Source: Campylobacterota bacterium (GTDB taxonomy: Bacteria; Bdellovibrionota; Bacteriovoracia; Bacteriovoracales; Bacteriovoracaceae). From it: a stretch of 64,000 nt of DNA. The notes under the pieces are model-generated. The model searched no databases and had not been told where the DNA came from. It was given only the letters and a program-made list of their open reading frames with translations. This document shows, piece by piece, positions 38,025 through 47,636 of this stretch (the stretch's first letter is position 1; every line of letters starts with the position of its first letter). Position numbers and translations under genes: made by a program. The stretch is from NCBI GenBank assembly GCA_003650125.1, contig QNFX01000002.1, positions 1-64,000 on the forward strand. Reading direction: 5' to 3'.

Positions 38025-39009
38025 AAATATCTAGGGCCTTGAGATTTTTAAAGGCCCTAACATATTCATCAATAATTCTTTCAACAATTTTAGCAACAGG
38101 TTCCACTCCATGTGTAAATTCAATGGAAGGCCCGGCACACCATACTGTTTTATAAGTAGCACTAAAGGCAGCTTTCTCAATCGCTTTAGTCCCCAGATAC
38201 CAGGTAAGCATTTTTATATATTTTTTAATCTTTTGATTTTTTGTAAGCATAGATTCCACGATATTTTGCTTAGTACCTATTTTTTTTACGTAAGGAGTAT
38301 TTATCACCGTACAGGGACTTCCTGATATCTTAGTGGATAAAACGATATCTTCCGCTCCATATGTTACACAGGCCTTTTTATACTTTGTGCTGACCGGACT
38401 CTCTTTGGCGGCGATAAAGGGACTTCCTATAGAAGCTCCCGCGGATCCCATAGCGAGAATTGAAAGTAGTCCATCTCCAGTGCCAACTCCTCCAGCAGAA
38501 ATTATAGGAAGATCGCAGTTTTTTACCAGTTTAGGAATCAGAACACTGGCCGGTACTGGGCCTGCATGTCCACCGGCCCCTGAATTGACCGCCACAATAG
38601 CATCAGCGCCTAGTTGTTCTACTTTTTTGGCATATTCAAGGTCAACAACATCACAAAGTATTTTAGTCTTTTTATTTTTGAATCTTTGTATAGTCTCTTC
38701 AGGGCTTCCCAGGCTGGTAATAATAAAATCAGGTTCTATTTTCTCACAGACCTCAAGTTGTTTTTTTAGTTTTATATTGGATTTATTAACAATTAAATTT
38801 ACGCCAAAGGGCCCTGTTATATTTTTTTTAAGATCTATCATGGCCTCATGAAATTCCTCTGCTGTCCGCCAGTTAAGTGCTGGCACACATCCCATGATTC
38901 CCGCTTTGGCCGCTTCAAGTAGCATCTCCTTATTTGAAACCAAAAACATCGGTGCCATTATAATTGGATATTTGATCTTAAAAGTTTTAGTTAACCAGGT
39001 ATCTATCAC
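37981..39009 (-). CDS. Nitronate-monooxygenase-like flavin oxidoreductase
   Basis: GTG 39009 with a purine-rich site upstream gives VIDTWLTKTFKIKYPIIMAPM, where the TIM-barrel fold begins; a further 29 residues are open upstream. ADAIVAVNSGAGGHAGPVPAS and LPIISAGGVGTGDGL are FMN-phosphate-binding motifs, and GASIGSPFIAAKES is typical. The family includes 2-nitropropane dioxygenase and FabK-type enoyl reductases; the missing FabK Fe-S or monovalent-cation hallmarks cannot be judged. It is 343 residues. Confidence 0.82.
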   Translation of the reverse strand: MIDTWLTKTFKIKYPIIMAPMFLVSNKEMLLEAAKAGIMGCVPALNWRTAEEFHEAMIDLKKNITGPFGVNLIVNKSNIKLKKQLEVCEKIEPDFIITSLGSPEETIQRFKNKKTKILCDVVDLEYAKKVEQLGADAIVAVNSGAGGHAGPVPASVLIPKLVKNCDLPIISAGGVGTGDGLLSILAMGSAGASIGSPFIAAKESPVSTKYKKACVTYGAEDIVLSTKISGSPCTVINTPYVKKIGTKQNIVESMLTKNQKIKKYIKMLTWYLGTKAIEKAAFSATYKTVWCAGPSIEFTHGVEPVAKIVERIIDEYVRAFKNLKALDISSAEADHPASKEHV

Positions 39010-39156
39010 TCTTTCTCTCCCCTCTAATTTTTTGCGAAATAATATCCTTTGTCGCTTTAAAAGGAAAATCAAGCACACAGCATTATATGTAAGCAATTTT
39101 TAGACATAAGGTGTTAGAAGTTTGTTAAAATATATTAACGAAACGAGGAGGACAGG

Positions 39157-40335
39157 ATGTTTTTCCACTTAAAAGGAATGATTCTTATTTTATTTTTTAT
39201 GGCAGGAAATGCTTTTGCAAGCATGCCTAAAAAAGTATTTATTTCAGTTGATGCTGATACTTTATCCATTTTGAAAAAAAAGAAATTTATCTCTTACGTA
39301 CCTAAAACTAATAGCAAAATTTCCGTAGTTGAAGTTAACAAAGAAGATATAGAGAAGATATCTGAAGTTATGCATAATGAATTTCGCCGCTGTGGTGGAT
39401 TTATGTTTCATGAGAATTACTCTGATGCTAAAAAAGTTTTTGATCCCGTTTCTAAAAAAGTATCTTTATTTGTGGATTATGCCATTAATAGGGAGAGTGT
39501 GGTTGCTAACTACCTTGACCAAGTAGATGAGAAAAAAATTATTGAGGTGATCGAAAAGTTATCGAGCTTTCCCAATCGGCATTATCAAAATACAAATGGC
39601 GTAACATCTCAGCTATGGATAAAGTCCAATTGGGCCAGACTCGCTAGTGTCAGAAGTGATATCTCTGTTTCAGAGTTTAAGCATCGCTGGAAACAATCAA
39701 GTATTATTCTAACTATTAAAGGTAGTAAAAGGTCTGATGAAATTATTGTCTTTGGAGGACACGGAGATTCTATTGCCGGCTCAAGATATGGTAGGAGAGC
39801 AGGTAATAAAGCTCCGGGAGCAGATGATAATGCCTCAGGAATTGCCGTTATTACGGAGCTTATAAGACTTGTCGTAGATAATAATTATGTTCCCCAAAGG
39901 ACTTTAAAATTTATCTCTTATGCAGCAGAGGAAGTAGGGCTTAGAGGTTCAAGAGAGGTGGCAAATTCCTTAAAAGGTCAAAATGTAATTGGCGTAATTC
40001 AATTTGATATGACCAATTATAAGGGATCAAATAACGATATCACTCTAGTTTCTGATTATACTTCCAGCGAACAAAATGCCTTTTTGGCCAAGTTGATCGA
40101 TCGTTATGTAGGGGCAACTTGGAGTTATGGAAAATGTGGATATGCCTGTTCAGATCATGCCTCCTGGAATAGTGCTGGATTTGCGGCATCCTTTCCCTTT
40201 GAGGCCCATATTAGAAATGCCAACCCTCATATTCACTCGAGTAGAGATACTATCGATAAATCTGACTATGGGGCCAAGCATGCAGTTAAATTTGCCAAGC
40301 TTGGTATAAGTTACTTAATAGAGATGGATCAATAA
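39157..40335 (+). CDS. Secreted M28 leucyl aminopeptidase
   Basis: 392 residues with signal peptide ending GNAFA and a probable propeptide to about residue 130. Zinc-site residues in Vibrio aminopeptidase order: His202 (GGHGDS), Asp223 (GADDNASG), Glu258/259 (AAEEVGL), Asp284 (FDMTNY) and His358/360 (NPHIH). CGYACSDHASW matches the disulfide-containing segment of that enzyme. It removes N-terminal residues from peptides outside the cytoplasm, fitting a predatory lifestyle with peptide import. A strong GAGGAGGACAGG ribosome site suggests high expression. Confidence 0.92.
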   Translation: MFFHLKGMILILFFMAGNAFASMPKKVFISVDADTLSILKKKKFISYVPKTNSKISVVEVNKEDIEKISEVMHNEFRRCGGFMFHENYSDAKKVFDPVSKKVSLFVDYAINRESVVANYLDQVDEKKIIEVIEKLSSFPNRHYQNTNGVTSQLWIKSNWARLASVRSDISVSEFKHRWKQSSIILTIKGSKRSDEIIVFGGHGDSIAGSRYGRRAGNKAPGADDNASGIAVITELIRLVVDNNYVPQRTLKFISYAAEEVGLRGSREVANSLKGQNVIGVIQFDMTNYKGSNNDITLVSDYTSSEQNAFLAKLIDRYVGATWSYGKCGYACSDHASWNSAGFAASFPFEAHIRNANPHIHSSRDTIDKSDYGAKHAVKFAKLGISYLIEMDQ

Positions 40336-40371
40336 TATTTACGCCTTGAACAAGGTAGGGTAGATTAGGCC

Positions 40372-42942
40372 ATGGCCCATGAAAATCTGCCCCCTTTACC
40401 TCCTTTTCAAGAAATAAAGGAATTCCTCGATACTGAACGTGAAACCATCATTAAGGTTAATGCCTTTTCTGAAGAAGATGATTTTATACGGCCTGGGTCT
40501 CAGGCCCTGCAAGTTTTAGAACTATTAGAAGAGCTACAAACCAAGTTGTGGCAGTTTTTCAAAAAATTCCCCAATTTTATTTCTTATTTTGAAAAAGAGC
40601 ATATTCCTCTAATGGAATTTTTTAGACGGGAATATATCCTGGAAATTTGTTTTTTAGATGATTATTTATTCCCCGAGAGGGCCTTATTTTCTTTTGCCAA
40701 AGATGGAGCTGTAGAAGAAGAACTAGTTAGTGAAATTCATCGATTCTTTAGTGAGTGGGCAGAGAAAAAAGAATCAGCTCATAAAAAAAATCTAGATAAT
40801 TTAAAAGAAAATTTTTATTTAGATTTTTCTACTGATGAATTAAGCTGCGATTGCCGTATTTGTTTGGCCGATTATAAATCAAAAATCAGAGACACTTTAT
40901 ATAAAGAATGCACCGATAAATTGGAAAATACCAAAGAGGCCATTCGGGAAACCGTTGAAGATGGCATTCAAACAGTTAGTGGACTCTACTATTCGCTACA
41001 AAAAGATTTGGATAAGCTATTTTTTAGATTTAGAAAAAAATTAAAGAAATCGTCCCTAAATAGATTAGAATCTCAGATAAAGAATCAAATTAAAGATTAT
41101 TTCCATTATCCTAGTGAGTTAGCAAAAAGACATTCTTTAAATTTGGAGCAGCTCTTTCGACAAATTCTCAAAATGCAGGGATTAAAACAAGATTTGGTTG
41201 GCGAGAATGAATACGATAGATTTTTCAGGCAACTCTCTAGCAACCTTTGGAAAAATGAAAAGTATTTAGAACGAGAATTTAAAAAACTTTTGAAATCACT
41301 TTTAATCTTAAAAAGAAAAGATATCTCGGGAAAAATTCTTCAAGATTACCTAGGAGAGTTTTGGATCCACTCACTAGCTAGAAAGGTTAAAAGGAAAATT
41401 ATCTATCATGCTGGGCCCACAAATTCGGGTAAAACTTATTTTGCAGTAAAAAAATTGATGAAGGCCAAAAAGGGTTGTTACCTTGCACCTCTGCGGCTTT
41501 TAGCAGCTGAATTATACGATACGATGAACTCTCAGGGAGTCAGTACAACTCTTTTAACAGGTGAAGAAGTTATTGAAACTGAGAATGCTACTCATTACTC
41601 TTCCACTATTGAGATGGCCCGACTAGCAGAGGATTTTGATTGTTGTGTAATCGATGAAATTCAAATGATCACGGATACTCAAAGAGGTTGGGCCTGGACT
41701 CGAGCTTTGGTCAACATTATGGCCGATGAAATTCATATATGTGGAGATCCCTCAGTACTAGATTTAGTCCAGCAAATAGTTGATCTTTGCGGAGACACTT
41801 TAGAGGTAAAATACTACGATCGAATGACCAAGCTAGATCTATCGCCAAGGCCTTATAATGTAGGGGAACTTGAAAAATATGATGCTTTGGTGGTGTTTTC
41901 TAGAAGAAATGCCCTTAGGTATAAAATGGATCTTGAACGACTCGATTTTAAAGTTTCTATTGTCTATGGAAGACTAAGTCCTGAGGTAAGAAGAGAGCAG
42001 GCGAGAAAGTTTGATCAGGGAGAGACCGATATTATGGTGGCCACTGATGCCATCTCCATGGGAATGAACTTGCCGATTAAAAGGATCATTTTTTCTACTC
42101 TCTCTAAATTTTTTGATAATCAGGAACATGTCTTAACTAACAGTGAAATAAAACAAATTGCTGGTAGGGCCGGAAGATATCAAAGGTTTCCTGAGGGGGA
42201 AGTTTCTTGCCTTTCAAGAGTTGAAGGAGGCATGGATTTAATTAAACATGCTCTAGAATCAACTTTGGAACAAAAATCTAACTGTATGGTTGGACCTGAT
42301 TTAGAAATTTTCAGCCAGGTTAATACTGCTCTTAAGGGGCATGCACTGCCTATATTAAAACTTTCTGAGTTCCTACAACTATTTAACACTATGGAATTTA
42401 AGCATCCATTTTATTGTGTAGATTTAAAAGAGATGATTGAGTTGACCGAAATGGTGGAAAATGCTGATACCAACGATATGCTCTCCTCCTCAGAGATTTT
42501 TGGTTTCGCCTGTGCTCCTGTGAATTTAGGTCTTTTAGAACATGTTCAATATTATGTTTGGATTTTAAATCATTTTGTTAAAGGTGGCCCCGTAGTCAAC
42601 GAATCAATCTCTCATAAATCAGGAGATATTGATTATTTAGAAACGTCCATTAAATGTGTCGAACTTTTTCAGTGGCTCTCACGGCATTTTAATAATAAAC
42701 ATTTTGAGTTTGATGAAGAGGCCCTTTTAGAGAATAAAGGATTAGCAATAGAAAAGCTCAATGAATTGCTATCTGATAAGATTGTTCCGACATGTAATAG
42801 TTGTGGCAAGAAGTTACAAGAGAATTCAAGATTTGCGATATGTGAAGATTGTTTCAAGCAAAGAAAATTCTCGCGAAAGAGAAGAGCAATTCCCCGGAAA
42901 AAAGTAAGCAAGGGTAGATCGGTTAAAAGAAGAAAAAGGTGA
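40372..42942 (+). CDS. SUV3-type RNA helicase with long N-terminal region and zinc ribbon
   Basis: 856 residues. The helicase core begins near 340: HAGPTNSGKTYFAV (Walker A), DEIQM (motif II), VVFSRRNA, YGRLSPEVRREQARKFDQG, VATDAISMGMNLP and QIAGRAGRY, the last three diagnostic of SUV3, the mitochondrial degradosome helicase also found in some bacteria. The N-terminal 335 residues are charged and helical with CDCRIC near 158. The C-terminus has a four-Cys ribbon (CNSCGKK...CEDC, about 807-835) and a basic tail. Probably RNA turnover or ribosome work. Its stop overlaps the next start (TGATG). Confidence 0.88.
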   Translation: MAHENLPPLPPFQEIKEFLDTERETIIKVNAFSEEDDFIRPGSQALQVLELLEELQTKLWQFFKKFPNFISYFEKEHIPLMEFFRREYILEICFLDDYLFPERALFSFAKDGAVEEELVSEIHRFFSEWAEKKESAHKKNLDNLKENFYLDFSTDELSCDCRICLADYKSKIRDTLYKECTDKLENTKEAIRETVEDGIQTVSGLYYSLQKDLDKLFFRFRKKLKKSSLNRLESQIKNQIKDYFHYPSELAKRHSLNLEQLFRQILKMQGLKQDLVGENEYDRFFRQLSSNLWKNEKYLEREFKKLLKSLLILKRKDISGKILQDYLGEFWIHSLARKVKRKIIYHAGPTNSGKTYFAVKKLMKAKKGCYLAPLRLLAAELYDTMNSQGVSTTLLTGEEVIETENATHYSSTIEMARLAEDFDCCVIDEIQMITDTQRGWAWTRALVNIMADEIHICGDPSVLDLVQQIVDLCGDTLEVKYYDRMTKLDLSPRPYNVGELEKYDALVVFSRRNALRYKMDLERLDFKVSIVYGRLSPEVRREQARKFDQGETDIMVATDAISMGMNLPIKRIIFSTLSKFFDNQEHVLTNSEIKQIAGRAGRYQRFPEGEVSCLSRVEGGMDLIKHALESTLEQKSNCMVGPDLEIFSQVNTALKGHALPILKLSEFLQLFNTMEFKHPFYCVDLKEMIELTEMVENADTNDMLSSSEIFGFACAPVNLGLLEHVQYYVWILNHFVKGGPVVNESISHKSGDIDYLETSIKCVELFQWLSRHFNNKHFEFDEEALLENKGLAIEKLNELLSDKIVPTCNSCGKKLQENSRFAICEDCFKQRKFSRKRRAIPRKKVSKGRSVKRRKR

Positions 42943-43781
42943 TGGCCCCGGAAGATTTTGCTAGAAATATTTTATTAAGCTCTAAATTAGCTGATAAATT
43001 AAAACCTTTTGAGGGTTCTAACTTTGATATAGGAAAAGGAGAAAAAGTCCCTGATACTCCGGCGAGATCACACCTTTTAAAGTTTTCCTCTAAGAAAATA
43101 AAATTCCCTAAGGCCTCACAATTTCATCATCAAGATAAACGGGCCATGGCCTTGCATTTTTTTGCGAATCATGAGCTCCTAGCAATAGAAATGATGGCCG
43201 CCTTTCTCCTTAAATTTCCCACAGAAAATGAACAAGATATTAAATTGAAACTTGGAGTACTCTCGGCCCTAGAAGATGAACAAAAGCATTTGAAAATGTA
43301 TCTAAAAAGAATGAAAGAGCTCGGAACTGAATTTGGTGACTATCCTTTGAATGACTTTTTCTGGAAACAAATGAATTATATCGATAAGAAGGAAGAATTT
43401 CTAGCAGTAATGTCTTTAACCTTTGAGACAGCAAATTTAGATTTTTGCCTTTTTTACAGAGAGGTTTTTAATGAATGTGAAGACCTCGAATCCGCCAAGA
43501 TTATGGAAGTTATCTTTGAGGATGAAATATCCCACGTTAAACTTGGACTTAATTTTTTAAATAAATGGAAACAGGATCAGGATTTATTTGACTACTATAA
43601 ATCGCTGCTACCAGAGGGTCTCTCACCTAATAGATCAAAAGGGATTAACTTTAACGCGAAGCTTCGTAGAGAGATCGGCTTTGAAAAAAGCTTTGTGGAA
43701 AAGATAGAAAATTATCAGGAGAAAAATAGAATTTTTAATCGGAGAGATAATGTCCAGCGATCGAGTGAACATAGATTTTGA
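42942..43781 (+). CDS. DUF455 ferritin-like protein
   Basis: 279 residues from ATG 42942 (overlapping the helicase stop). RAMALHFFANHELLAIEMMA, EDEQKHLKMYLKRM and FEDEISHVKLGLNFL are the DUF455 pattern; the two ExxH motifs plus Glu in NHELLAIE and FETANLDF would form a diiron site in a four-helix bundle, related to MiaE-like hydroxylases. Substrate unknown. The gene sits between a SUV3 helicase and an ATP-grasp gene with overlaps at both ends, suggesting the three work together. Confidence 0.8.
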   Translation: MAPEDFARNILLSSKLADKLKPFEGSNFDIGKGEKVPDTPARSHLLKFSSKKIKFPKASQFHHQDKRAMALHFFANHELLAIEMMAAFLLKFPTENEQDIKLKLGVLSALEDEQKHLKMYLKRMKELGTEFGDYPLNDFFWKQMNYIDKKEEFLAVMSLTFETANLDFCLFYREVFNECEDLESAKIMEVIFEDEISHVKLGLNFLNKWKQDQDLFDYYKSLLPEGLSPNRSKGINFNAKLRREIGFEKSFVEKIENYQEKNRIFNRRDNVQRSSEHRF

Positions 43782-44847
43782 ACCTCAGCTATATGGCATA
43801 AATAGCAAGGCCAGTTTTAATGAGGAATTTGAATATATATATTTTTTCTTTAAAGATAAAAACCTTAAAAATATCAGAGCTTATCCAAAGGATTACCTTG
43901 GGTATCTACAAAAATTAGGACTTGAGCTGCCCAAGCTATCCCCACATGACCAAAATCAAAATGATTGGTGGGGAGAACTTAGTGAAAAAAGTAGAGTGCT
44001 AAACTCAAAAGTCACAGCGGTTGAAATAGGACTTCAAAATGGATTGTGTCCTGACAGCGTAAGGGTGGTCACAAAGATTGAAGAAGTTGAGAGCATTTTA
44101 GATGAGAATCCTCGTAAAGATTTTTTTATCAGAGATCCCTATTTGGCGGCAGGAAATAATAGTTTAATTTTTTCCCGTAAAAATTTTAAGAAAAAATTCA
44201 TCTCTAAGTTACTAAATGAAAGAAATCTAATCATGGCACCCTATTTTAGACGTTTGATGGATGTTGGCTTTGTTTTTAATCATGGAGAAATAGAACTTTT
44301 ATGGAATCTTAATTCTAAAGATGGAAAATTTAAAGCTGGGATAATTTATAGAGAAGAGAAGGATTTCTTTGACTTAATCGAGAGTGAATTTGGACTTAAA
44401 AGGAATGAGATATTAGGTATCCAAAATAAGATATACGGCCTTTATCAAAAAAAGGGAGCAGAGGGGATAATGCAAGTAGACTCTTTTTTTTATCAGGAAG
44501 AGGGACAAGTTAAGTATTACCCTTTAGTAGAAGTGAATTATCGCAAGACATTTGGTCTTTTCATAAATAGATTAAGGTTATTGTTAAAAGATGAGGAAGT
44601 AGGGATTTTTCTAAACTTTAACACTTCAGACTTACGGCCAATTGAAAATTTTAATCAACGTCTTGATCAAATAGGGGATTTAAGTGTTATTCCACTTTCG
44701 CCCCAGGATGGGCGATTTTCCTCTTTCTTTGCAACAAGCGATTCCCTCAGTAACTTGCATAATTTGATAAAAAAAACTTGGCAGAAATTGTCCACAGGAG
44801 AGGCCACTCTTTCACCCTCTCTAAATCTTGACCAATTTATATTATAG
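43750..44847 (+). CDS. ATP-grasp-like ligase
   Basis: 365 residues, GGAGAG before the ATG, overlapping the DUF455 gene by 32 bases. ATP-grasp features in order: FFIRDPYLAAGNNSLIFS where ligases have a Lys and a Gly-rich loop, LIMAPYFRRLMDVGFVF (metal/ATP-binding Glu position replaced by Ala-Pro-Tyr), GIMQVDSFFY and YPLVEVNYRKTFGL, matching the Mg-binding ExN region. Such enzymes couple a carboxylate to an amine through acyl-phosphate. The substrate is unknown; the context suggests a peptide- or amino-acid-type modification linked to the ferritin-like oxidase. Confidence 0.65.
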   Translation: MSSDRVNIDFEPQLYGINSKASFNEEFEYIYFFFKDKNLKNIRAYPKDYLGYLQKLGLELPKLSPHDQNQNDWWGELSEKSRVLNSKVTAVEIGLQNGLCPDSVRVVTKIEEVESILDENPRKDFFIRDPYLAAGNNSLIFSRKNFKKKFISKLLNERNLIMAPYFRRLMDVGFVFNHGEIELLWNLNSKDGKFKAGIIYREEKDFFDLIESEFGLKRNEILGIQNKIYGLYQKKGAEGIMQVDSFFYQEEGQVKYYPLVEVNYRKTFGLFINRLRLLLKDEEVGIFLNFNTSDLRPIENFNQRLDQIGDLSVIPLSPQDGRFSSFFATSDSLSNLHNLIKKTWQKLSTGEATLSPSLNLDQFIL

Positions 44848-44922
44848 TGTTTTGGTATCCTATTAAATAATTCTGATTATATTACTTAATAAAAAGTATT
44901 TTTTTTTCGATAGGTCTATCAT

Positions 44923-45756
44923 ATGAAATTCGATATAAACGCCCTAATTGAAAAGATCAAAGAAAAAATCCCCTTCGGTCAAAAGGAAGAAGAGGAAGTT
45001 GTAGAAGTACAAGAGGAAGTATCTGATGAGGGTGAAGAAACTAAAGTAGAAGAGATCGAAGAAGAAGATGATGAAGATGCCGCTGCAAAAAAGAAAAAAG
45101 GTCTTTATATAAAGATCCTCGCTGGAGTCGTTGTAGCATTTTTGGCGATTGATGAGTTTACCAAAGATAAAAAAGGTCCCCCTCCAGCACCCACCAAAAA
45201 GGTAAGAGCAAAAAAGAAAAAAGTGAAAAAAGCTAAAAAGGCACCCGTAAAAAAAGTCGCTAAAGAGAAAAAAGTAGAAAAACAAGTTAAAAAAGTTGCT
45301 ATGCCAAAGGTCGAACCCAAACCTGAGGTAAAACTTCCTACAATTACTAAAGAACCGATTAAACCAATAAAAAGAGAAATCAGTTCAGTTCCACCAATTC
45401 CTCCTAAAGAAGAACCAAAACAACAAGATCCAAAGGAATTGGCAATAGATGTAACTGAGATTGTGGAAGAGATTGGAACTCCAACTACAGAAGAACTAAA
45501 AGGACCTGCTGAATATGTATCCCCACCTGATTATACAGAAGTTGGAAGAGGCTTGGTCTATAACTGTAGAGGCAAACACTGGGCATGCGTAGATAAGAAT
45601 TCTTATTTTGCCTGTAGGGATAACCTTAAATGGTCAAAAGAAAATACTAAGGCCCCTGAATGTTTTACTAAAGATGTTTATAGAAATGAAAAAGATTGTA
45701 GGGTTATTCAAACCCATTTCGTAAATACTAATGAACAAATTGATTTTTGTAAGTAG
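44923..45756 (+). CDS. TonB-like envelope-spanning protein with Cys-rich C-terminus
   Basis: 277 residues in four blocks: a very acidic cytoplasmic part (about 18-55), one membrane span (IKILAGVVVAFLAI), a Lys-rich then Pro-rich stretch (about 80-165) resembling TonB or FtsN spacers, and a ~65-residue domain with eight Cys (YNCRGKHWACVDKNSYFAC...). I infer a cytoplasm-to-outer-envelope linker. No TonB C-terminal motif is present. A perfect inverted repeat, GATAGGTCTATC (44909-44920), covers the ribosome site two bases before ATG, possibly limiting translation. Confidence 0.55.
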   Translation: MKFDINALIEKIKEKIPFGQKEEEEVVEVQEEVSDEGEETKVEEIEEEDDEDAAAKKKKGLYIKILAGVVVAFLAIDEFTKDKKGPPPAPTKKVRAKKKKVKKAKKAPVKKVAKEKKVEKQVKKVAMPKVEPKPEVKLPTITKEPIKPIKREISSVPPIPPKEEPKQQDPKELAIDVTEIVEEIGTPTTEELKGPAEYVSPPDYTEVGRGLVYNCRGKHWACVDKNSYFACRDNLKWSKENTKAPECFTKDVYRNEKDCRVIQTHFVNTNEQIDFCK

Positions 45757-45758
45757 AT

Positions 45759-46478
45759 CTAGCTTGCTTTCTTATTAAAGTTTTTATCGATAATTTTTAA
45801 GAAGAAAGTAGACTCATTTTTCTTTTCTTCTTTTGCCATCGCTTTAATGAATAATTTAACTAACTCGGGATCAAATTGTGAACCAGAAAACTCTTGAAGC
45901 TCATCAAATGCCACCTGATAGGGGAGACCTTGTCTATAAGGCCTGCTAGAAGTCATGGCATCAAAAGTATCTGATATTAGAATTATGCGAGAGAACAGAG
46001 GAATTTCATCACTTTTTAGGCCATCAGGGTAGCCTCTGCCATCAAATCGTTCATGATGATGTTTAGATATTTTTGCCACTGTCTTGAAATCCTTAAATCC
46101 CGCTAAAATTTCAGCAGATTTTACCGGATGTTCCTTCATAATTAGAAATTCATCTTCATTTAATCTTGTGGGTTTGTTTAAGATAAAATCAGGAGTTCCA
46201 ATTTTTCCCACATCATGAAATAAACCTGCCATTTCGAGGTCATATAATTCACTTTCTTTAAAACCCATTTCCCGACCTAGATTCAGTGAATACCAGGCCA
46301 CTCTAGTACTGTGGTTGTAAGTGTAGTGATCTTTCGCGTCAAGTGCCTGAAGTATCGTTCTACAGGCCATTTCACAAGTTTTGCGATGTTCTTCTTTCAG
46401 ACTTCGAATTTCTTCACTTTGCTTTATAAGTGTTAACTCAGTGAGAGAAATAATATTATTTGAATCGCTTTTTCCCAT
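45759..46478 (-). CDS. HD-GYP domain phosphodiesterase
   Basis: About 239 residues from ATG 46478 (a TTG at 46490 is in frame). The HD-GYP domain has YNHSTRVAWYSLNLG, GLFHDVGKIGTPDFIL, KHHHERFDGRGYPDGL and ILISDTFDAMTSSRPYR, all metal- and substrate-binding residues of cyclic-di-GMP phosphodiesterases. The N-terminal ~40 residues look like a short coiled coil, without receiver or membrane domain. It probably degrades cyclic di-GMP, which in related predators controls motility and predation. Divergent from the PP2C-like gene. Confidence 0.92.
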   Translation of the reverse strand: MGKSDSNNIISLTELTLIKQSEEIRSLKEEHRKTCEMACRTILQALDAKDHYTYNHSTRVAWYSLNLGREMGFKESELYDLEMAGLFHDVGKIGTPDFILNKPTRLNEDEFLIMKEHPVKSAEILAGFKDFKTVAKISKHHHERFDGRGYPDGLKSDEIPLFSRIILISDTFDAMTSSRPYRQGLPYQVAFDELQEFSGSQFDPELVKLFIKAMAKEEKKNESTFFLKIIDKNFNKKAS

Positions 46479-46577
46479 TTTTTTACTCAAGTTTAAATTA
46501 TGAATACCTATCGGATTGATGTGAGGAGGGCCTTACCAGATTTCGCTTTGGACTAAAACGATGTAATCTTAAGTTCG

Positions 46578-47636
46578 ATGGCAAAATTACTAATCAATGA
46601 AAACGGTGGGATAATAAGGGATTTCATTAGTCCTATTAAGGAAATCTCAGAGTTTAGTACTCTGGAAATTAATTCCTATGTAGAGGGTGAAACTTCAAAT
46701 GAAGAAGTCGGATTGATTGTGGAATACGGGGAAGATATTGGTGATATTAAAAAATCTGGGCCAATTCTTCTCGCTTATAATCCCTCTGAAACAGATATTT
46801 CAAAATTAGAGCAGTTTTTGAAAGAAAATCCTGAGATTTATGGCCCGTTAGATTTAGATAAAAGTCTTCAATTACAAATTCCTGTAATAAGAGAATTTTT
46901 AAAAACATTAAAAAAAACATTAGAATTAAAAGGGTTAGAGCAAAAGGTTAACAAACTTAGAAAAGAGACAAAATCTCAACTTGATATTATTAAAAAAACG
47001 TTTGAAAAAATGGTTCCGGTAAGAAGTTCAAAAAATAATGGAATAAATGTTTATGTAAAGTTCGCCTCAGGTAGTTCTCAGGGAGGTGAGTTTTTCGATA
47101 TTGTAAATATTTCGATGCAGACACTTATTCTTTGGAATAGAAGTAATACTTATCAGGGATCAAATAATTTTTTAGATTCATTTCAGGCCTTTGAGAGCAA
47201 GAGCTACGTCCTTGAAGTCTTGGAGAAGTTTATTAGAGATTTAAAACCTGAAGAGGGTCAAGAGGTTTTTCTTGGACAGATAGATTTAAAAACTTTGACC
47301 TTCAGTGGATTTAATATTTCTAACTCTTTTTTTTACTTTGAAGATGATAAAAAAATTCCCAATTCTTCCTTTGAAACTTTAAGACCATTTAGTGTTAGGT
47401 TAAAAAGAGGTGAGAGATTTTTAATCTTATCATCAGGTGCCATGGAAAGCTTAAGAGAGTTAAACCCTGACCTGAATTTGAAAGTTAAATTGGATGAGTC
47501 GAGTTTGTTAAGTCCTAGAGAAGTATTAGATGAGATCTTTTTTGAATTAAAAAGAAATAGTAAGAAAAAGTTTCTTCCCAACGATTGTGTCATAATATTA
47601 GTAGAGGTGGATAAAAATGTTATCTTTCAAGTTTAA
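46578..47636 (+). CDS. Degenerate PP2C/SpoIIE-type phosphatase-like protein
   Basis: 352 residues. The first ~110 could be a degenerate receiver-like domain (VGLIVEYGEDIGDIKKSGPILLAYNP), then a coiled-coil linker (about 115-150). The rest follows SpoIIE/RsbU order: GSSQGGEFFDI where active enzymes have vGGDfyD, LKRGERFLILSSGAMESL where they have l-pGD-LllyTDGv-E, and LPNDCVIILVEV where they have DD-T-lvv. The key metal Asp residues are changed, so it is probably inactive and acts by binding. There is no ribosome site; a TAATCT ends nine bases before the ATG, so it may be leaderless. Confidence 0.55.
   Translation: MAKLLINENGGIIRDFISPIKEISEFSTLEINSYVEGETSNEEVGLIVEYGEDIGDIKKSGPILLAYNPSETDISKLEQFLKENPEIYGPLDLDKSLQLQIPVIREFLKTLKKTLELKGLEQKVNKLRKETKSQLDIIKKTFEKMVPVRSSKNNGINVYVKFASGSSQGGEFFDIVNISMQTLILWNRSNTYQGSNNFLDSFQAFESKSYVLEVLEKFIRDLKPEEGQEVFLGQIDLKTLTFSGFNISNSFFYFEDDKKIPNSSFETLRPFSVRLKRGERFLILSSGAMESLRELNPDLNLKVKLDESSLLSPREVLDEIFFELKRNSKKKFLPNDCVIILVEVDKNVIFQV

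Follow-up and report, generated by a model that had tools for sequence, protein, structure and literature searches.

Ferritin-like diiron enzymes and ligases of the ATP-grasp superfamily are each well known, and described relatives can be named for every protein of the locus considered here. Among the ligases, the nearest solved structures are those of Streptomyces ATP-grasp peptide ligases (PDB 8ynd and 3wvq/3wvr, the latter of which we take to be PGM1 of pheganomycin), which combine a pre-ATP-grasp region with an ATP-grasp domain. Other ATP-grasp ligases, those of the R2K/CDC123 clade, have been proposed to make peptide-like bonds and are without the usual linker lysine (PMC4431377). MiaE, a tRNA-(ms2io6A)-hydroxylase, is a diiron ferritin-like four-helix bundle, DUF455 (PF04305, COG2833) is a ferritin-like family without an assigned function, and the SUV3/SUPV3L1 proteins (PF22527) have a DEXQ helicase core and a Helicase_C domain. 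We analysed a stretch of 64,000 nucleotides (positions 1 to 64,000 of contig QNFX01000002.1, assembly GCA_003650125.1, Bacteriovoracaceae), hereafter the window, in which the genes for an SUV3-type RNA helicase, a DUF455 protein, and an ATP-grasp ligase of an unnamed family overlap on the + strand. The results suggest that the DUF455 protein and the ATP-grasp protein are probably two halves of one enzyme, which would act successively on one substrate. A literature search on DUF455, COG2833, and ATP-grasp combined with ferritin-like proteins found no description of such a fused or split two-step enzyme in open papers.

The DUF455 gene (42942-43781, + strand) encodes 279 amino acids and the ligase gene (43750-44847, + strand) encodes 365 amino acids, with an overlap of 32 bases (43750-43781). 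Homologues were surveyed in 129 genomes of the window's class, which in this survey is represented entirely by the window's family (f1); many of the genomes were incomplete metagenome-assembled genomes (MAGs), and the gene calls at related loci were mechanical. Both genes were present in 100 genomes, DUF455 alone in two, the ligase alone in one, and neither in 26, weak and short DUF455-like frames (about 165-180 residues) being left out of these counts. The two cases of DUF455 alone were fragments, with matches of 58 and 103 positions. Furthermore, some absences of the pair are assembly gaps, because SUV3 was also missing in eight of the 26 pair-less genomes, the assemblies of which were 59-87% complete. 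All 98 pairs located on the same contig were on one strand and 95 of them were adjacent, and the two genes overlapped or were in contact at 31 of 32 f1 loci. The weak DUF455-like frames found in f1 genomes (G084 C96:3981-4424; G096 C108:6069-6515) perhaps belong to another ferritin-like family. One genome (G044; L130 and L131) had SUV3 adjoining the ligase with DUF455 on another contig, and no other locus showed so clearly a departure of DUF455 from the cluster.

Outside f1, the ligase domain was carried as the C-terminal half by DUF455 proteins about 600-800 residues long. Among the other Bdellovibrionota families, at least 12 genomes encoded such single chains, which also occurred in Myxococcota and one planctomycete; Myxococcota additionally held split DUF455/ligase pairs with a 4-bp overlap, and lone ligases. 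In the phylogenetic tree, the ligase-linked DUF455 proteins formed one clade (support 100/100), apart from the stand-alone DUF455 proteins of the other families of the phylum, and the split forms of f1 nested among the fusions, with moderate support for the family's own branch (92/36). The two DUF455 clades also differed in a motif, which was NHELLAxE...(Q/T/A)ANLDF in the ligase-linked clade and NIELQAxE...GSGLDA in the stand-alone clade. The simplest history suggested by the tree is an ancestral fusion that was later split in the window's family. In one genome (G352; L101 3923-6134, the same region as L143), DUF455 and the ligase were in two overlapping frames, as if a fusion had been frameshifted or freshly split. 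The structural model of a fusion protein was of high quality, with a predicted local distance difference test score (pLDDT) of 89.7 and a predicted template modelling score of 0.86, and showed, from N- to C-terminus, a four-helix bundle, a pre-ATP-grasp region, and an ATP-grasp domain. When this model was compared with the PDB using Foldseek, the top matches were the Streptomyces peptide ligases 8ynd (E = 3.2e-12) and 3wvq/3wvr. These enzymes share the pre-ATP-grasp and ATP-grasp architecture with the fusion, but identity is about 13%, and the present module differs in being fused at its N-terminal side to DUF455.

The third open reading frame (ORF) matched no Pfam or NCBIfam family, curated Pfam ATP-grasp models included, and when the window ligase by itself was searched against PDB sequences, no entry was matched; a few of its homologues gave Pfam ATP-grasp matches below threshold. 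In a profile-profile comparison, the profile of the ligase family matched the ligase domain of the fusions over 335 columns (P = 99.9%, E = 4.5e-32). Moreover, the 50 best listed PDB matches of the window ligase model in Foldseek were all ATP-grasp enzymes (best E = 1.3e-9), as were those of the fusion model. The predicted core spans residues ~80-296 (43987-44637, + strand), where the pLDDT of the AlphaFold2 model was mostly 70-95; the alignment used for this model contained fusion homologues only, and the N- and C-terminal parts were of low confidence. The core is also marked by conservation in 43 homologues, which share K87 (in LNSK), K/R128, mostly an SGxG loop, D171, N186, D244, E261xN263, and R265. 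Among these residues, the first ATP lysine K87 and R265 were invariant or nearly so, and of the metal-binding residues D244 and N263 were kept in 43 of 43 homologues and E261 in 42. The ratio of nonsynonymous to synonymous substitution (dN/dS) was about 0.14 against the other species of the genus, with dS near saturation; since homologues also occur in 101 of the 129 class genomes, the ORF is a real gene. From its sequence profiles and modelled fold, the third ORF is an ATP-grasp ligase. Membership in the R2K/CDC123 clade, with which it has the ATP-grasp ligase type in common, was ruled out, as the first lysine (K87) is kept in the window's ligase family and no DUF4343 match was obtained.

The DUF455 protein of the window matched PF04305 with E = 5.7e-45 and 154 bits, well above the gathering score of 34.3. 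The six diiron ligands E83, E113, H116, E162, E195, and H198 (pattern E, ExxH, E, ExxH) were all invariant in a 23-row alignment. The window protein therefore passes the Pfam cut-off for the family and keeps its diiron ligands, but differs from ordinary DUF455 proteins in belonging to the separate clade that carries or neighbours the ATP-grasp partner. The original prediction, made from the sequence of the window, had called this protein a relative of MiaE. A diiron ferritin-like superfamily is indeed common to both; on the other hand, no MiaE family appeared among the Pfam matches at E ≤ 1, and in a PDB profile search MiaE (8fhc) was reached at E = 0.026 as one of several weak matches, in the same range as other ferritin-like enzymes such as aldehyde decarbonylase and EncFtn. 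The domain calls made there for all three genes (SUV3 helicase, DUF455, and ATP-grasp) agree with the present results, including the ATP-grasp core, which was recovered by family motifs, profile-profile comparison, and Foldseek. The co-occurrence survey that it proposed gave a nearly perfect association of DUF455 with the ligase (both in 100 of 129 genomes), backed by gene fusions, and the homologues of these two genes were linked and not scattered.

Since related bacteria have the two halves fused, it is very probable that both share one substrate. We infer this common substrate, the complex of the split halves, and the types of reaction from linkage, fusion, and conserved ligands in the sequences and from predicted folds. 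DUF455 would be a four-helix diiron oxidase or oxygenase, in which O2-dependent oxidation of the substrate takes place at the diiron site. Its partner, which with its predicted ATP-grasp fold comes closest in structure to the peptide-ligase group, would be a carboxylate-amine ligase, forming an acyl-phosphate in a Mg-ATP-dependent manner and then an amide bond. The oxidation and the ligation could occur in either order. In most lineages the module would work as two domains of one chain, and in the window's family as two translationally coupled proteins, most likely in a complex, this split form being presumably derived from the ancestral fusion. Several points weigh against a single two-part enzyme. 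In Myxococcota, some ligase homologues lie apart from any DUF455 gene, and in two f1 genomes the ligase is instead fused to or beside a carbamoyltransferase, indicating that DUF455 is not the only partner of the ligase domain. Near the module, an inspection that did not specifically target short precursor ORFs showed no gene for a precursor or substrate, and biochemical data on any member of the family were not found. Furthermore, residue changes in the window copy, described below, could mean that its ligase activity is altered or lost.

A narrower form of the two-part enzyme was also considered, in which the module, in the manner of PGM1, would serve the synthesis or tailoring of a specialised small molecule or peptide instead of acting on a macromolecule or core cofactor. 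The nearest structures are indeed ATP-grasp peptide ligases. In addition, ligase paralogues (L195 4022-9001 and L116 3335-5974) had a carbamoyltransferase as neighbour (G028) or as fusion partner (G029), and in the former genome the two genes formed an operon, with overlaps, together with a glycosyltransferase-like gene. However, whether lone gene or pair, the module had no biosynthetic neighbours, its surroundings being housekeeping or variable, and most class genomes retained it. No natural-product tailoring genes were observed in these neighbourhoods, the limit on short precursor ORFs applying here as well. Taken together, such a specialised role is a possibility to be kept in mind, though we do not expect it.

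The third member of the trio, the SUV3-type helicase gene (40372-42942, + strand, 856 amino acids), was identified by PF22527 (DEXQc_Suv3; E = 9.8e-64) and by its best PDB relatives, which were SUV3/SUPV3L1 proteins (E = 4.5e-75 to 4.7e-70). Its translation contains the motifs GPTNSGKTY and DEIQMI, and it has the DEXQ core and Helicase_C in common with SUV3/SUPV3L1. The alignments to solved structures begin at residue 316-335, which leaves the ~330 residues at the N-terminus as an extra region; identity across f1 was ~75-80% in the core (~residues 335-700) and ~30-40% in the N-terminal region. Within the latter, a CxCxxC motif (C159/C161/C164, residues 159-164; 40846-40863, + strand) was 100% conserved in 40 class SUV3 proteins, although the region around it was conserved at ~29%, and it is possibly a metal site. 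A C-terminal zinc ribbon (C808/C811/C824/C827; 42793-42852, + strand) was also present, each cysteine being ~95% conserved in 40 proteins. These two features and the long N-terminal region distinguish the window protein from SUV3/SUPV3L1, as does the SUV3 C-terminal domain (PF12513), which scored 17.4 bits in the window protein, under the cut-off of 27, and above the cut-off in a relative (L197). The long N-terminus and zinc ribbon had both been noticed in the original prediction. A role in anti-phage defence was rejected, because the PADLOC matches were to generic helicase domains of SUV3 only, and none was obtained for DUF455, the ligase, or the fusion.

The start codon of DUF455 (ATG at 42942) shares one base with the stop codon of SUV3, forming a TGATG overlap (42940-42944, + strand); an alternative GTG start at 42939 would give a DUF455 protein of 280 amino acids. 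The three-gene overlap, of 1 and 32 bases, was thus just as it had first been described, and the linkage extended across the window's family, in which the tightly packed order SUV3, DUF455, ligase was seen repeatedly. The junction between SUV3 and DUF455 measured -4 to +17 nucleotides in 24 of 32 same-strand f1 loci, and an insert of 0.8-1.6 kb separated the two genes at 7 of the 32. As the median gaps around the trio were 53 nucleotides upstream and 681 nucleotides downstream, the tightness of the trio exceeds chance. Predicted promoters and terminators were about as numerous as chance would give, so the ends of the operon cannot be placed, and an Rfam search of 38900-46600 gave no match near significance to a structured RNA. 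A class II aldolase/adducin-like gene was present at about half of the loci in the class (L123 188-883 and ~19 other f1 loci), immediately downstream of the ligase or SUV3 but on the other strand; it was not found in the window.

From this gene order a single RNA or ribosome modification pathway (unwind, oxidise, ligate) had been proposed. In such a pathway, RNA would be unwound by SUV3, and DUF455 would oxidise a nucleotide or a side chain of the ribosome, to which the ATP-grasp enzyme would attach a group. Besides the tight junction, several observations are consistent with this proposal. In one Oligoflexia MAG, an SUV3 gene (38% identical) divergently adjoined the fusion gene. The sister clade of stand-alone DUF455 adjoined YebC/TACO1 and S4-pseudouridine synthase genes in several families of the phylum, with PTPS (QueD-type) genes close by and SufE genes also near (L153-L172, in many genomes). 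Furthermore, a lone ATP-grasp homologue in a Blastocatellia MAG was divergent from a QueG gene (L152 4480-6540). However, the distribution of SUV3 argues against the proposal. SUV3 was present in 73 of 73 good class genomes, so its co-occurrence with the pair is little informative, and 18 class genomes kept SUV3 without the pair. In several of the pair-less genomes examined, the M28 peptidase gene, SUV3, and the next conserved gene were close together with the pair cleanly gone, and in the family at large the flanks were syntenic as well (M28 peptidase, SUV3, the pair, an f0 gene, and an HD protein). No SUV3 match was obtained in the 22 genomes of other phylum families with ligase matches. In the Myxococcota fusion genomes and related MAGs, SUV3-like genes were absent or on other contigs, and none adjoined the split pairs of Myxococcota, some neighbours of which resembled, when judged by eye, acyl-CoA or fatty-acid genes and not RNA genes.

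A single pathway embracing all three proteins is therefore unlikely. Of its three steps, oxidation and ligation stand as a two-part enzyme, in view of the fusions and the co-occurrence, whereas unwinding, like RNA as the target, is weakly indicated by the gene order of one family and by the hints above. SUV3 looks like a looser neighbour and a core helicase of the window's family that is not needed for the module elsewhere, and perhaps shares expression with the pair. A widespread oxidase-ligase enzyme of this kind could also introduce a novel modification into RNA, the ribosome, or a translation factor, with SUV3 presenting RNA in the window's family, which we regard as rather unlikely. The hints toward translation and those toward small-molecule chemistry disagree, and the present evidence gives no choice between them.

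The window copy of the ligase keeps K87, but has R128 at the second lysine position, AGNN (134-137) in place of the SGxG loop, and alanine for the hinge glutamate, and the same changes were found in a sister species of the genus; in most homologues the loop is canonical. Nucleotide handling by the ligase of this genus may accordingly differ. These alterations, which both known members of the genus have and some other f1 members share in part, could also suggest a pseudoenzyme that merely regulates or stabilises DUF455. Such a role is improbable, as the window protein retains D244, E261xN263, R265, and K87 unchanged, purifying selection acts on the gene, and arginine occupies the second lysine position in 14 of the 43 homologues. 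Finally, three functionally unrelated genes might be held together by chromosomal inertia in one family, to which the syntenic flanks would conform. For SUV3 this may hold; for the other two genes it is very hard to reconcile with their fusion in several phyla, with the overlapping split pairs of Myxococcota, and with their loss as a unit.

The two-part enzyme of DUF455 and ATP-grasp ligase separates the real half of the earlier operon story from what is local gene order, namely the position of SUV3. It makes visible an ATP-grasp family that is missed by Pfam and NCBIfam, and the fusion, a single protein of ~700 residues, provides a simple experimental entry. Above all, the fusion assigns a partner to one clade of DUF455, a family that had no assigned function.

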